Of a DNA stretch of 64,000 nt, positions 7,201-64,000 are shown in pieces. The translations under genes were made by a program, and so were the position numbers. The DNA lies in assembly GCA_903813345.2 (NCBI GenBank), contig CAIIXF020000007.1, forward strand, positions 3,291,730-3,355,729, read 5' to 3'. Every line of letters begins with the position of its first letter. Position 1 is the stretch's first letter. This DNA comes from Owenia fusiformis (lineage: Eukaryota; Annelida; Polychaeta; Sabellida; Oweniidae). The notes below the pieces were generated by a model. The model was not told the origin of the DNA. It saw nothing but the letters and a program-made list of their open reading frames with translations, and ran no database searches.

Positions 7201-10200
7201 TCATAAAGATCATGATTTAGGCCAACTGGTTTATATTTTACTTGCAGATGGTGGCAAGTGCCTTATTTCTGGGCAGGTATCAAAGCTTATGATCTGGTAG
7301 CTGGAGGGCAAACATTAAAGAGCAGCTACTTCCTCAGCAAGACGAAAACTTTGGAATTATTCCCTATGCTTAAGAAGGAGAGGATGGTTGGCTCCCTTGT
7401 GTATTATGATGGTATGTATAATTTAAAATTGTTTTGATTACAGTTCCAGTGTCATTATCATACAAATAACTCTGTTGTTTGGTGGGCTGTGCAACTCTGA
7501 ACTTTTGTTAGGATCAAATAATTTTTGATATGGAATTTACCATTTACATCTGAAGACAAAAAATAATATTTATAAATGTGAAATCTGAAAATTAATTTTC
7601 ATATGCTTATGTAGGTCAGCACAATGATGCCAGAATGAACCTTGTGATTGCACTTACTGCAGCAAGGCTGGGAGCAACAATTACCAACCATACAGAAGTC
7701 CTAGAGCTCATCAAGTCCACTGATGAGAATGGCAAATCTACAATCAGTGGTGCTAAGGTGAAAGACAGAATGACAGGTAATAATCCTCTTCATTAAGATT
7801 ATACAGTGTATATACATTTTAGGTTGTTTCAATCATGAAAATGTAACTGAACTTAAGGCAGTTCTCATATGGCTAGTTTATTTACCACTTATCCAATCCA
7901 ACTTATGGTGCAAACAAAATGACATGAGATCATATACTCTACATTGCTCTGATGCCACAATGTTGTTTTTATCACTCGACGATCAATGTTGATGCTGACC
8001 ACGTTTGTTTGATTTTTTCTTTCGAGTTCTTCCTGCGCATTTTGAACCTCAATGGACGCTGCTATTATCCCAAGTTTTTGTTTTTAATTTTCCAACTACT
8101 AGAGATTGGCCCGTCCTGGGCAAATTTAGAAGTGACATTTTCTGATTTTGTAAAAACTAGACTGAAAATGACTTAATACACAGGACATCATCTAAACTTT
8201 GGCAAAAGATATAAATTAGCAGTTTTTCTATTTGCCAAATTCACAAACAAAGCTGGCATCAACTTAACCCAATCTACAGTATTGTTTACTGCTTTACAAA
8301 TACATGTATTTCCAAACAAATATATGATGTTGAGATATCTGAATAATCCATTTTCATGTTCTTCAGGCAAGGAATTTGAAGTGAAAGCTAAGTGCGTAAT
8401 TAACTGTACTGGGCCTTACACTGATTCTGTGCGGGGTATGGACCAGAAAAATATAAAGAAGATTTGCCAGCCAAGTTCAGGTGTCCACATCGTTCTGCCA
8501 GATTATTATAGGTAAGTGGTACAAATGCATAAATGTGGTCAATGTTTTTCAATTAATCAGGACATAGATTAGACAAGAGTGTGAAATAAAGATGATGGAC
8601 TTTCTGTAGGTCCATAAGACCGTATGTCCATATTAGAGTTGAATTAAAGAAATTATGAGCAGTCATTATTTAAGGAATAAAGACCGAGATTTTATGATTT
8701 ATGGTGTGATATATGACCGAAAAATTTATTCTGTTCATTGTTAAAAGACCAAAATCGAGTAGCAATTGAGGTCTTTGGCAATGGCCAGAATAAAATTTGA
8801 GATCATATATTGGACATAAATCATAAAATCGAGGTCTTTGTTACGATTCTAATATGATAAACAGACAAGAAATACAAATATTTGCATTTATGAATTTTAG
8901 TGGTCATACATACTGAAGAAGAAGAAAATATAACGAGGAAAATATTATAGCGAAAAATAGCGTCAGGCTTCGACCGTTATGATAAATTCCGCGAAAGTTT
9001 ATTCAAAAAAATAAAACTTACTGAAATCATGAAACGCCAGAATGTAAGACCGCCTCGTTGAAGTTTTATTGCTACATTAGATTTACGATCGGTATTTTAA
9101 TTACCTTTGCTACTAGAAAAAGAACGAACACAAAAACACATAACGTAAAACTACAGACATTGTTTCAAACTATACAAATCAGAAACAATATAAACAACAG
9201 TTTAGCATCTTATCAACGTACCATTCCTGAAGAAAATATTTAGATACAGGGATAAGCTGTTTGTTTTCCCGCTGGCATTAAACATTATATTAGGCGATTA
9301 TAAAGAAAGTCTTGTGTCACCGGTTTACTTGATTGTTATAATCCGTTAATTAGAATTAAAACTTACCTGGAAAGTACAATAAGTAAGCCAATAATTAACA
9401 GGTAATTACTGAGAGCATGTATGTATACATTTATTGAAAAACAAAAGGCGAACAAGTTGTTACTAATTTTATTCGTTCGTAAATTAAAAACGTCATGGCA
9501 AAATAGGTCATTTTATCTTTTGAATTAATACTGATTACGTACCAGGGAAACCAAATATGATGACTGTATGAGTAATCAAACAATCTAGGAAGCATAACTA
9601 GTATTAGAATGAGTATTCGAAAGTATATGAACCGTGAGGAGCTTTCATTTAAACACAGTAAGTTCGCGTGAATTAGTAACTCTATTATCGCTCACAGCGG
9701 TAACCCTTAATAATTTCGGGAATCAAGCATTAAAACCTCGGCTAGAACAATGGGCTTTCTAGGCCTAGTTTGACATGAAATTATTGGGCTCTTGGACCGT
9801 TATAATTTCTTCTCGCGACTTTTGATTTTGGCAGCATTTCGTTATAATTTGTTCCCGCTATAATTTCTTCTTCTACAGTATTCCAATATAGACCAGTAAA
9901 TCAATTGTTCTAGTTATTGTGACATCACGTATTATATTAGAATTTTAAGTAGATGAGAGTACAAGACTTAATTTACTGGTGTATCACCACTAAACTTTGG
10001 CCTAAGTTTGCTCTGAATCTCTCACTTGATAAATGAGAATTCATTAAATCCACATGCATTCATTTTTTAGCCCTGACCAGATGGGACTACTGGACCCCTC
10101 CACAAGTGATGGAAGGGTAATATTCTTTCTTCCATGGCAGAAACACACTATGGCTGGCACAACTGATAATTTATGTAGCGTTACAGATAATCCTGCACCA

Positions 10201-13200
10201 ACTGAAAAAGAGGTTGAGTTTATATTGAATGAGATCAAAAACTACTTGAATGCAGATGTAGAAGGTACATGCATCATATAGATAACCTGCATATGTTTTA
10301 TTAACTGTAATAATTCTAAGAAGGGAATAAAATATGGAATCAGAGTTAGACCAATATTCAATACATTTTGTCTTATTCAGTACCTTTTGTAATTACTCTG
10401 AAATTAAATGTATGTTCTCAAAAATCAGAAGAATCGTTGATATGGTATTCCTTATGATCCATTTGTCTCTTTGGACCATCACATATCTACTCATGGATAA
10501 CTGAAAAACAAGACAAAAGAACTTCTTGTTGAAACACATGTAACTGTATAATATGTTGTATATCCTAGTGAGGAGAGGGGATGTGCTATCTGCATGGAGT
10601 GGAATTAGACCCCTGGTGTCTGACCCTAATAAAGCAGATACCCAATCACTTGCAAGGAATCACATCATTGAAGTCAGCCCATCACAGCTCATCACTTTAG
10701 CAGGTAGAATATGTACACACGGCAAATCCTGGACTTGTCCAAATCTGTATTATTAGCATCAATTAATTTTGAATAATGAACACATAAATAGGATATTCAC
10801 GGGCTGTCTGCATTAGAACATTTAATCAGGTCCTTCAAATGAATTGCAAAGCTGGAGCAAAATTGCAAAGTTTTCAATTATACTAAAAAGTATTTGCTAC
10901 TCCTAGGTTATTACTAGTTGGTAAATGACTACATGTATTGCTACATTTATGTGCATGATAAATGCATATATGGCTATTTGCTTCATATATTCTTGAATTA
11001 GGTGGTAAATGGACGACATACAGACATATGGCTGAGGAGGCAGTTGATAAAGCTGTGCAAGTTTGTAATCTCAACCCTGCATCTCAGTGTGTTACCAAAG
11101 GACTCCTTTTGGATGGTTCTCACAATTGGACTCCAACTATGTTCATCAGATTAGTCCAAGATTTTGGCTTAGAAAATGAGGTAAGAACAAAACTCTGCAA
11201 ATGAAAAATGTTTTCACATGTCACCTCCAAAGGTATATTGTTATGGTCTCCCAACTTTTCTGTGACAGTGTCGATGGTTGGTGTGCTGTGTCTGTAACAA
11301 ATGGCAGGTGGTGCGGGAGGTGGTGACATTTTGCATGTTAATGCCTTGTTTTGGTATATTAATATTTTCTAAGTTTGCTTTATGAAAGCAAATGTAAGTT
11401 TTATGATAGCAAGAAAGACATCCAAGACAACAGAAGTTAGAATGGGAAGAAATACATGTAATTTAGTCCTGAACCAATCAAATCAAGCAATTTTGAATAA
11501 CATTTTGGCAACAATGTTTATTTTATCCTACTATTATCATCACAATACCTTTTGCTCTATGTTTTTTTGTAGGTAGCTCAACATTTAGCAAACACTTATG
11601 GGGACAGGGCTTTCAAAGTAGCGAAGATGGCCAAGATAACTGGGAAAAGGTGGCCAGTTGTAGGACAGCGTCTGCAAGAGGAATTCCCTTATTTAGAAGC
11701 AGAGGTAACAAATACATTTGCAAGTCGAAGTCGGTTAACACGCATGATTACAACTAAAATTAAGAATAGAGTAAAAATGCATTCTGTTATTATTTTCAAA
11801 TTTTTATTGCGGTTGATATGTACGTTGGCTCTATGTATGTAAATATTGTATGGGATCAGAGAGTATGCTTGCACAGCAGTTGACGTGTTGGCTTTGTGTT
11901 TGTAGATATTGTATGGGATCAGAGAGTATGCTTGTACAGCAGTTGACGTGTTGGCTTTGTGTTTGTAGATATTGTATGGGATCAGAGAGTATGCTTGCAC
12001 AGCAGTTGACATGTTGGCTTTGTGTTTGTAGATATTGTATGGCATCAGAGAGTATCCTTGCACAGCAGTTGACGTGTTGGCTTTGTGTTTGTAGATATTG
12101 TATGGGATCAGAGAGTATGCTTGTACAGCAGTTGACGTGTTGGCTTTGTGTTTGTAGATATTGTATGGGATCAGAGAGTATGCTTGTACAGCAGTTGACA
12201 TGTTGGCTTTGTGTTTGTAGATATTGTATGGGATCAGAGAGTATGCTTGTACAGCAGTTGACATGTTGGCTTTGTGTTTGTAGATATTGTATGGGATCAG
12301 AGAGTATGCTTGCACAGCAGTTGACATGTTGGCTTTGTGTTTGTAGATATTGTATGGGATCAGAGAGTATGCTTGTACAGCAGTTGACATTTTGGCTCGA
12401 TATTTGTAGATATTGTATGGGATCAGAGAGCATTCAGTGTATTGTATGGGATCAGAGAGTATGCTTGTACAGCAGTTGACATGTTGGCTTTGTGTTTGTA
12501 GATATTGTATGGGATCAGAGAGTATGCTTGTACAGCAGTTGACATGTTGGCTTTGTGTTTGTAGATATTGTATGGGATCAGAGAGTATTCAGTGTATTGT
12601 ATGGGATCAGAGAGTATGCTGGCACAGACATGTTGGCTCTATGTTTGTAGATATTGTATGGGATCAGAGAGCATTCAGTGTATTGTATGGGATCAGAGAG
12701 TATGCTTGTACAGCAGTTGACATGTTGGCTTTGTGTTTGTAGATATTGTATGGGATCAGAGAGTATTCAGTGTATTGTATGGGATCAGAGAGTATGCTGG
12801 CACAGACATGTTGGCTCTATGTTTGTAGATATTGTATGGGATCAGAGAGCATTCAGTGTATTGTATGGGATCAGAGAGTATGCTGGCACAGACATGTTGG
12901 CTTTGTGTTTGTAGATATTGTATGGGATCAGAGAGTATGCTTGTACAACAAGTTGACATGTTGGCTTTGTGTTTGTAGATATTGTATGGGATCAGAGAGT
13001 ATCCTTGCACAGCAGTTGACGTGTTGGCTTTGTGTTTGTAGATATTGTATGGGATCAGAGAGTATGCCTGTACAGCAGTTGACATGTTGGCTTTATGTTT
13101 GTAGATATTGTATGGGATTAGAGAGCATTCAGTGTATTGTATGAGATCAGAGAGTATGCTTGCACAGCAGTTGACGTGTTGGCTTTGTGTTTGTAGATAT

Positions 13201-16200
13201 TGTATGGGATCAGAGAGTATGCTTGTACAGCAGTTGACGTGTTGGCTTTGTGTTTGTAGATATTGTATGGGATCAGAGAGTATGCTTGTACAGCAGTTGA
13301 CGTGTTGGCTTTGTGTTTGTAGATATTGTATGGGATCAGAGAGTATGCTTGTACAGCAGTTGACATGTTGGCTAGAAGGACAAGGCTTGCTTTCCTCAAT
13401 GTACATGCTGCTGAAGAGGCCCTCCCTCGTATTATAGAAATCATGGCTAAAGAACTTGACTGGAGCAAAGCAAAACAAAAGGTACCTGATTATATCAAAT
13501 GTCTTGAGTTACCTTCAGAAAACTCATTTGAAGCCTTTAAATGACAAGATTCAATATAACGACTTATATGGCATGCAAATAAAGTGCATTTTGCTCTTAA
13601 TTCTTAAACAGAAATACGATGTGTGATGGGGTTTCCCTTGCCCTGAAATTGTTGTTGTCTAGTTATGAATTTGATGATTGCCTCGGACAGCTTGTCCTTA
13701 TAGAAGGAGCATACCAATCAGGATACAAAACTTCATAATTAGAGAAAATAGATGATTTTCAATTTATTTAGTTACATGAAAAATTCTCTGGCTTTCAATA
13801 GGTATCGATTGTGACTGATATTTCGTATTTGCAGGAAGAAATGGACAGTGCCCTACTGTTCCTGAAGAATGAGATGGGACTTGCTCTTAAGGCAGAAGCA
13901 AAGAATGTCCCTATCAACTTTACCAAGGAGGAAATTAATGAATATGTGAAAAGGTTTCACAAACTTGACACTGACAAGAAAGGGTATATTACTGTTAACG
14001 ACTTGCGCAGATATTTCAAGGTAAACTTATTTTGCATTTTGATATGAACATGAACATTGTTTTTTACATTTATTTATTTCCGTCTCATTGCATTCCTTTG
14101 TGTTAAAAATGAAATAATGAAAGTATGCTTGATTGAAAAATGTAAACAGCATTCAATTATTAATATTAATAGTAATTTATATTCCGTCTCTCAAAGTACA
14201 TGTACATATAATGTTCAATCAAAGCTATTATAATTTCTTGTTCAAAATAATTCGTTTACTGTACTTGGAAAAGTGTGTTTGGCAATGTGTACATTTTTAC
14301 ACTGTTTTACTGTTTCATATTTTGAATTAAATTATTCCTGAATCATTTTAGGGCAGATAATTAAAATGGATATATTTTCCCCTTGTCTCTTGGAACTGAG
14401 AGTATATCTTGAATTACATGGAGTGATTTGCATAATTACTGTAAACTGTGTGATATATATATAATTAATTAAATTAGACTAGATTCAAGATCTAGTCTGG
14501 CCAGTGGCCATGTCTATTATAGAATTGCTTTGTCTCGAGGAATACACAGACAAGATTCATTGTGCTCTTGATGCAGCTTAATCGTCTCTGCTTTCAGACT
14601 TAGTTTAATAATTTACAGTTCGCTTCTGTGTTAATCTGCTATATTAAGAATTTAAAGTCCCTTCCAACTGTGTGTTTCATAATATTTTGTTTGTTCATAT
14701 GTAACATGATATGGGCTTACACAGCCCCCTCCCTTTGTGTGAATCATAATATATAAACATTTTGTTTGTATGAAACTATGTAGGTTCGCAAGGAATTTAT
14801 CACTGAAGATATGCTTCATGACATCCTTAATGAAGTGGATGTGAGTAAAAATGGACATATCGAGTTGGGAGAATTCTTACAGGTATAGTAATAGTCTATC
14901 TTTTATAAATGTGCTTTCTTAAGGCCTCAACCCCCTCCCTCTGCTTGTGCATTGGGCTCTACCCCCTCCTGCTGCATGTGCATACAGCCTGGGCCACGGT
15001 AGCAGAGTTGCCTGCAGCGTTCAGAGTTAGGCCACATGAAGGCTTAACAGCATGTGCTATTGTGCTTTCTGGATACGTGTCCACTATTTTTCATTTGGTA
15101 CATTTTATAGAATCAAAGGGATCATGTATCAGAGGAAATGCTTCATGAAATGCTACGTGATGTAGATTTACACCACAATGGGGAAGTTGAATTGGGTGAA
15201 TTCTTACAGGTACTTTAGTTATAGCAGATTCATTTGAGAATTGTTTTTGTTGAGAATTGTTAATTGTTTTTAGCAACAGCTTCATACTTGAGATTCTCGA
15301 AATGATGCCCTTGGCTTTTATAATGAAAGTAGGGAACAAAACAACCCTTGTTATAATCACACATGGAACTTCTTAAGATATCTCTCAATTTTGTGCTTGT
15401 GGGTGCTGTCAAAGATTGGTGTTTGGCATTTGTAACAAATGGCAGGTGGTGACATTTTGCATGTTAATGCCTTGTTTTATTATGTCACCACCAGACCAGA
15501 AGTGGTTTTGACATCAAGTCTTCATTTTAATTCCCATGGGTGATATTGTAGATTGGCATCATTACGCAAATCTCCAGTATGGATAAGTTGATTGATAATG
15601 ATATGGGTTTGGGTGTTTTTTGATATTTTAGCTACTGGTTTAAAAAAGAAGAGAGCAAAGTAAATCTCCAAAAGATAGAAGTTAATGAACGGTTCTTTGA
15701 AATTCTTTAAAATTATTTTCCTCAGGATCAAAAAGAAGGCACTTGGCTGTATGCAAACACAAACTGTAAATCCTTAATCTTGTTACTTTTGGGACACCCT
15801 GTATATCATCTGTAATCTGATTGTGTAGCATAAGTTAAATGTATGAAAAACAAATCATATTATGTCATTTATTTTAAGTTAAATAACATATTTAAGTTGC
15901 TATAAGTTATATTTCTTGAAAGACCTTTCTTTCTAAATACCCCGAAATTTGTAGAAACAGCCTGAAATTTACACCATCAACAGAATTTGAGATAGCTTCC
16001 TTCCAGAAAATACCATGGCTTGGAAAATGTTGCTCACCTAGCATGACATGTGTAAAATCAAACCAAAGTGGTACATGCACTTCTTTTAATTTCTATAATG
16101 AACAAAGTGCGTAATTGTCTTCAAGTTCTAATATTTAGAAAAAAGAAGATATGCATGTTACAAAGTCTTTTGATGGCATAAGTTACTGTTAGTCTGAATT

Positions 16201-29928: not shown

Positions 29929-57736
<27,808 letters not shown>

Positions 57737-61774: not shown

Positions 61775-62560
61775 AATGTACCTCATTTACACACAGTGAG
61801 GCTATTAAGAACTGAAGGCAATGCACCTCACAATTTGCAAAGACACAGACTGACCATTATGAGCTAAACACAATGCACCTTATTTACACACAGAGGGACC
61901 ATATATAACTGAACACAATGCACCTCCTAAAGACAAAGGTTGACCAATAAGAGCTGAACACAATGCACCTCCTAAAGACAAAGGTTGACCAATAAGAGCT
62001 GAACACAATGCACCTCCTAAAGACAAAGGTTGACCAATAAGAGCTGAACACAATGCACCTCAAAAAGACAAAGGTTGACCAATAAGAGCTGAACACAATG
62101 CACCTCCTAAAGACAAAGGTTGACCAATAAGAGCTGAACACAATGCACCTCATAAAGACAAAGGTTGACCAATAAGAGCTGAACACAATGCACCTCATAA
62201 AGACAAAGGTTGACCAATAAGAGCTGAACACAATGCACCTCATAAAGACAAAGGTTGACCAATAAGAGCTGAACACAATTCACCTCATAAAGACAAAGGT
62301 TGACCAATAAGAGCTGAACACAATTCACCTCATAAAGACAAAGGTTGACCAATAAGAGCTGAACACAATGCACCTCATAAAGACAAAGGTTGACCAATAA
62401 GAGCTGAACACAATTCACCTCATAAAGACAAAGGTTGACCATTAGAAGCTGGACACAATGTACCTCATAAATAAATAGTGAACAATAAGAGCTGAACACA
62501 ATGCACCTCATGAAGACAAAGGTTGACCATTAGAAGCTGGACACAATGTACCTCATAAAC
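61775..62560 (+). repeat. 45-bp minisatellite, about 16 copies
   Basis: The unit is about CATAAAGACAAAGGTTGACC, AATAAGAGCTGAACACAATG, CACCT. The central copies are almost identical and the flanks degenerate. As 45 is a multiple of 3, two long minus-strand frames run through it (FSSYWSTFVFMRCIV repeats). They reflect the repeat, not a protein. Confidence 0.92.
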
Positions 62561-63570: not shown

Positions 63571-64000
63571 ATGGTGAGAATGGGTAGTTCATGTATTTCG
63601 AAATTGAGTAAAATTATACTTTTTCTCTCACTGTTACAAATAGCGTCAACTCGTGACATAATAACACTTAAACGTCGATTTAAAAATGCACCAACTTTAA
63701 CGGCGCTCTTGCGTGACGTACAAACTATTAATAGAAACGATAAGCAGCGTATGGCACACTCGAACATCAACGATGGACGAAAAATGCATCTAGTCGAAAT
63801 AAAAGAACCAATGTTTGAAAACGAGAATGGGCTTCACAACGGGCTTCACAAACGTCAATGGGATGACTACGGTATACCAGCAAATCGATTTGGCAAACGA
63901 AACGCCGAGGCTCATAAGCGATGGGGAGCGATATGGTTGTCACCTTTTAAACGCCAAGGGTCAGCGCCATCTAGCTCTGCTACCAGGGAATACAATATGA
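63571..64000 (+). CDS. Candidate neuropeptide/hormone precursor, 5' part, open at the window edge
   Basis: The ATG at 63571 follows an in-frame TAA at 63547 and opens 143 codons with no stop before the edge. The start MVRMGSSCISKLSKIILFLS continues LLQIASTRD, a typical signal peptide with a basic n-region and hydrophobic core (about residues 15-27). Convertase sites follow: KRR 34-36, GRK 69-71, KR 94-95, GKR 108-110, KR 116-117 and KR 127-128. Between KR 94-95 and GKR lies QWDDYGIPANRF, which would mature to an N-terminal pyroglutamate, C-terminal amidated RFamide of 12 residues. Next come NAEAH and WGAIWLSPF, each bounded by KR. I do not recognise the peptide family. Signal peptide, clustered KR and an amidation signal in one frame are unlikely by chance, but transcription and the 3' end are unseen. 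Confidence 0.68.
   Translation, partial: MVRMGSSCISKLSKIILFLSLLQIASTRDIITLKRRFKNAPTLTALLRDVQTINRNDKQRMAHSNINDGRKMHLVEIKEPMFENENGLHNGLHKRQWDDYGIPANRFGKRNAEAHKRWGAIWLSPFKRQGSAPSSSATREYNM

Follow-up and report, generated by a model that had tools for sequence, protein, structure and literature searches.

The end of the window, by which we mean the whole 64-kb stretch of DNA analysed here (C7:3291730-3355729 in a genome of 498 Mb and 525 contigs), very probably carries, judging by sequence comparison, a second, diverged CCK/sulfakinin (CCK/SK) precursor gene that arose by duplication in a lophotrochozoan, probably an annelid, and whose single IPAN-core peptide would act on CCK-type GPCRs. On our best reading, the gene retains the Gln start, the DYG motif and the RF-Gly end, carries IPAN where the usual core would stand, and encodes one CCK-type peptide, not two. 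CCK/SK peptides form a conserved feeding hormone system and, if the assignment is right, an annelid with two CCK/SK genes, one of them core-changed, would make post-duplication ligand-receptor co-evolution testable outside vertebrates. Such precursors also evade profile search, Pfam having named neither gene.

The frame lies on the + strand, begins with an ATG at 63571 and stays open up to the end of the window (64000), which holds residues 1-143 of 252; there is no stop inside the window because the window edge cuts the gene. On the contig it runs on without interruption through 326 more coding bases and stops at C7:3356056-3356058, which closes the protein at 252 aa, and no decay of the frame is seen beyond the edge. 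The further peptide copies looked for in the extension did not appear: two CCK-type peptides are usual in the family, if not defining for it, as one spider precursor has a single SK (PMC8921109), and this gene carries one in all 252 aa. A DNA search of the genome returned a single location, the window itself. The predicted signal peptide (residues 1-27, 63571-63651, +; the cut site is inferred, and Met4 is a possible start) has the hydrophobic core IILFLSLLQIA at residues 15-25, where the 11-residue hydropathy of 2.64 is the maximum of the whole protein, so that by hydropathy the start is signal-peptide-like, as had been proposed. It is followed on the + strand by KRR (63670-63678), KR (63850-63855), GKR (63892-63900) and two further KR sites (63916-63921 and 63949-63954), in agreement with an earlier count of at least five basic cleavage sites in one frame. 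Between the second and third of these sites lies QWDDYGIPANRF (63856-63891; 63856-63900 with its GKR), predicted to be a pyroglutamate-capped and amidated CCK/SK-type 12-mer. The stretch KR-QWDDYGIPANRF-GKR (63850-63900) provides dibasic bounds and an amidation glycine, contains DDYG (63862-63873) and hence the (D/E)Y(G) motif, and ends in IPAN-RF-GKR, which would give the C-terminal RFamide of protostome members of the family, the four-residue spacing after YG being that of the molluscan peptides; together with the hydrophobic start, it supports the reading as a neuropeptide precursor, from which a pGlu...RFamide is predicted. The Tyr of the peptide (63868-63870) is preceded by two Asp and, by analogy with the family, is a likely sulfation site.

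As the first reading was done by eye on raw sequence, an open frame might merely resemble a precursor by chance, an idea to which we give next to no credence. When a crude filter (a frame of at least 100 aa with a hydrophobic start and a dibasic...G-dibasic arrangement) was applied to the real window together with the next 1,270 bases of the contig, the window gene was its one match; 60 simulated 64-kb windows gave a mean of 0.017 and a maximum of 1, and the KR..GKR form occurred in 0/60. Likewise, none of 20,000 order-1 Markov sequences, modelled on the ORF itself, remained open for 252 codons. Frames of this kind, with a hydrophobic start and KR..GKR, are not chance; the simulations speak against that explanation, and the match to the paralogue described below also stands against it.

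This paralogue lies 11 Mb from the window gene on the same contig (C7:14590726-14591154, 142 aa plus stop) and ends in ...SKR-QWDDYGLSGARF-GKR-DDMYGFAGGRF-GR-DTDHVDPEREE. With the window protein as genome query at E up to 10, only itself and one place in the paralogue (C7:14591002-14591082, E 0.061) were found among the best candidates scored; the reverse search led from the paralogue to the window gene at E 0.037, and a 34-residue query holding the paralogue's peptides recovered, besides its own locus, the window gene at E 0.019, with no others at E up to 10 among the best candidates scored. Since these genome searches score best candidates only, a further paralogue is possible. The best ungapped 17-residue comparison of the two proteins, over KR..GKR, has 13 identities, against a maximum of 9 in 3000 shuffled pairs, and local alignment of the whole proteins scores 81, where shuffles give 30 +/- 5 (0/500 as good; the shuffle comparisons and the full-length Pfam run used 251 of the 252 residues of the window protein). 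The genes share an identical KRQWDDYG----RFGKR, a hydrophobic start and one open frame, whereas the paralogue has the core LSGA and a second peptide, DDMYGFAGGRF-GR, and ends 11 residues past it. Outside the peptide little can be aligned: the parts after GKR give a marginal alignment (29/500 shuffles as good), the parts before the peptide match no better than many shuffles do (127/500; 233/500 without the leaders), the N-terminal spacers are not alike, and in the paralogue nothing apart from this marginal match corresponds to the 124 residues that follow the last KR of the window precursor. Shared flanks were not found either, as the 9.9-kb neighbourhoods of the two loci give no blastn match at E up to 1e-3. 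Compared codon by codon, KR..GKR (17 codons) has 8 identities, 5 silent differences and 4 residue changes; the two codons next to it are both changed, and the KR ahead of the CCK-type peptide is itself written with different codons. A peptide that has been kept while its surroundings diverged beyond recognition points to a peptide under selection and functional in both genes; from this one sequence pair, we infer that selection retains the CCK-type peptide in each of them.

The family assignment is reached through the paralogue. Molluscan CCK/SK peptides (taken from PMC4208409 and PMC12535377), used as genome query at E up to 10, matched the paralogue alone among the best candidates scored (E 0.045) and did not reach the window gene itself, whose link to a known family member is thus found only via the paralogue. 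In a six-row alignment of the peptides with molluscan CCK, Y, G, R, F and G are invariant, and the excerpt of PMC6219549 names a terminal F-amide alongside (D/E)Y(G) as the common CCK/SK features. Taken together, the paralogue matches, the molluscan match and the shared motif place the pair in the CCK/sulfakinin family. Any single precursor match reaches only E 0.02-0.06; it is the agreement of several lines that carries the case. The earlier view that YGIPANRFamide matches no nameable family is therefore superseded: the pattern WDDYG-x4-RFamide is that of lophotrochozoan CCK/sulfakinin, and the same contig carries a paralogue that encodes two peptides of the CCK type. Pfam reported no family above its cut-off for the window precursor, also when given 251 of its 252 residues, or for the paralogue; Tox-ART-HYD1 (143 window residues, E 0.14) and Exo_endo_phos2 (paralogue, E 0.018) fell below the cut-off and were read as chance.

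Convergence on DYG...RFamide by a new RFamide family without kinship to CCK/SK would account for this missing Pfam match, for an IPAN core unlike the CCK peptides in the excerpts of literature compared, and for the fact that GIPANRF and five other precursor strings (GLSGARF, GFAGGRF, IPANRF, WGAIWLSPF and PANRFamide) were not found in the open-access papers searched. We consider it improbable and set it aside in favour of CCK/SK on the strength of the paralogue identity and the searches: 13/17 identity lies far above shuffles, and the paralogue, with two YG..RFamide peptides in CCK order, is the sole match of the molluscan CCK peptides among the best candidates scored. About as improbable, in our judgement, is that the window gene is a decaying CCK/SK duplicate on its way to a pseudogene. 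Its second CCK copy is missing, its core is altered and its codon usage is unremarkable: among 157 other window ORFs (at least 60 codons, tandem arrays left out), it was beaten by 10 after training on GPCR pieces (which contain flanks outside exons), by 4 after training on HSP70 and by 2 with both, and compared with the other five frames of its stretch (read through stops), its standing depended on the training set: below 5/5 (GPCR), above 5/5 (HSP70) and below 1 (both). Yet although the spacers have diverged, the start, the leader with its hydrophobic core, the 252 open codons, the amidation glycine and the two cleavage sites remain intact, which argues against decay because a copy relaxed for long should have lost them.

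Several known systems, as they are described in the excerpted text of the papers cited here, come close to the window gene. The oyster peptide QGAWDYDYGLGGGRFamide is, like that of the window gene, a pGlu peptide with DYG-x4-RFamide that is placed first in its precursor, but it has the core GLGGGRF and two Tyr where the window gene has GIPANRF and one (PMC6219549, PMC4200219). In the oyster, an RWamide second peptide follows directly after the first, whereas the window gene has a long tail and no second CCK-type peptide; the paralogue keeps the oyster order, with its second CCK-type peptide directly behind the first (PMC4200219). Aplysia CCK, QGAWSYDYGLGGGRF-NH2 and SYGDYGIGGGRF-NH2, shares DYG-x4-RFamide with the window gene and differs from it in having two peptides from one precursor and a GGG core; sulfated forms and a satiety role have been demonstrated (PMC12535377). 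Leucosulfakinin-II is alike in reading pQxDDYG...RFamide against pQWDDYG...RFamide, but separates YG from RF by two residues (HM), where the window peptide has four (PMC8921109). The same source, as excerpted, reports introns in CCK/SK genes for mammals and C. elegans only, a pattern that the single open frame of the window gene fits. GTRAG occurs at codons 2 and 179 of the ORF; splicing is possible.

In the place of the second CCK-type peptide of its relatives, the window gene reads NAEAH-KR-WGAIWLSPF-KR (KR-WGAIWLSPF-KR at 63916-63954, with the nonamer itself at 63922-63948, +). The original prediction had taken WGAIWLSPF to be a free 9-mer; the KR on both sides stands, while its release is a cleavage prediction only, an amidation glycine is lacking and no other genome match was found among the best candidates scored. 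Most likely, although we hold this with low confidence, it is a linker fragment at the site of a lost second CCK copy; loss in the window gene, rather than gain elsewhere, is suggested because the oyster layout has two. After the last KR, in the part of the precursor past the window edge (L002 2731-3059), the tail contains the cysteine-bearing GCTFMCLP and RCFPRNC and might hold a further peptide.

In the proposed mechanism, the precursor would enter the secretory pathway and lose its leader, convertases would cut it at KR, the N-terminal Gln would cyclise to pyroglutamate, the Gly would be converted into the C-terminal amide, and the Tyr after the two Asp would be sulfated. The released pQWDDY(SO3H)GIPANRFamide could then act on CCK-type GPCRs and so control feeding or gut motility, by analogy with the gut and feeding roles of CCK reported in excerpts on oyster and Aplysia (PMC6219549, PMC12535377). 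That IPAN stands before RFamide where the paralogue has LSGA and molluscs have LGGG suggests an altered receptor preference or potency.

Candidate receptors are present in the genome. A query of 82 aa, matched to CCKAR by a PDB search, gave at least 102 matches among the best 150 of 333 candidates, and many matches are to be expected for rhodopsin-type GPCRs; they lie on contigs C1-C12, at coordinates of tens of megabases, and on the small C101 and C230. The top two among these best 150 of 333 are both on C2 (48% identity at E 4e-20, and 47% at E 2e-16), and open stretches next to them, which lie on the same strand outside the query coverage and were taken as exons of the same gene, retrieved CCK receptors first in PDB (E 2e-25 and 8e-25), the next family following at 6e-14 and 5e-13. 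Both C2 loci read ERY...SRGWQT-SH, which we take to be a CCK-receptor feature. At a third locus, on C1, the matching exon itself retrieved CCKAR (3e-14) and then galanin receptor 2 (5e-9); the PDB comparison covered these three of the six receptor loci retrieved, out of at least 102 matches. The three candidates lie at C2:29.35 Mb, C2:21.48 Mb and C1:40.3 Mb. The two C2 genes are, by best match, candidate CCK-type receptors, closest to CCK receptors among solved structures, and are comparable to the two CCK-type receptors described in excerpts for the oyster (PMC6219549, PMC4200219).

A second CCK/SK gene is of modest novelty, because the excerpted review gives one SK gene for all studied invertebrates except spiders (PMC8921109). 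Elsewhere in the excerpted literature, two Saccoglossus precursors appear in a figure legend and one in the text (PMC4062910), Platynereis sulfakinin is listed (PMC3890597), and sulfakinin is named in nemerteans, brachiopods and phoronids in PMC8557429, the excerpt of which gives second forms for other families and mentions none for sulfakinin. Owenia and sulfakinin together were not found in the open-access papers searched, and a term search of the main text of the Owenia paper PMC10880339 returned neither CCK nor sulfakinin. As to the animal, the genome has three matches to annelid haemoglobin linker domains, all above the cut-off and one with an internal stop, while COX1 gave no match in the assembly. 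We put forward only tentatively, and with clearly less conviction than the family assignment, the wider scenario that the lineage split CCK/SK into two genes, as vertebrates did with CCK/gastrin, one of which keeps the two-peptide layout while the other makes a single IPAN-core peptide with its own preference among the two or three receptors of CCK type, perhaps along with a new co-peptide that is not amidated.

The rest of the window gave no Rfam match above gathering scores and contains several other features. A + strand frame at 8177-8515 has a sub-threshold Pfam match to DAO (E 1.2e-5, 25.4 bits vs 27.9) and reads like an exon of, presumably, mitochondrial glycerol-3-phosphate dehydrogenase. 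A minisatellite at 11824-13373, with a 63-base unit and variants of it, contains the window's longest open frames, which reach 299 codons. About 1 kb upstream of the gene, at 61839-62559, lies a tandem array of 16 copies of a 45-base unit (90% matches), with - strand open frames of 131 and 140 codons. Tandem arrays of longer period are found at 37221-38230 (144/287 bases) and 43345-44269 (463 bases), and the units of both contain an ATGGCSGCC-like motif.
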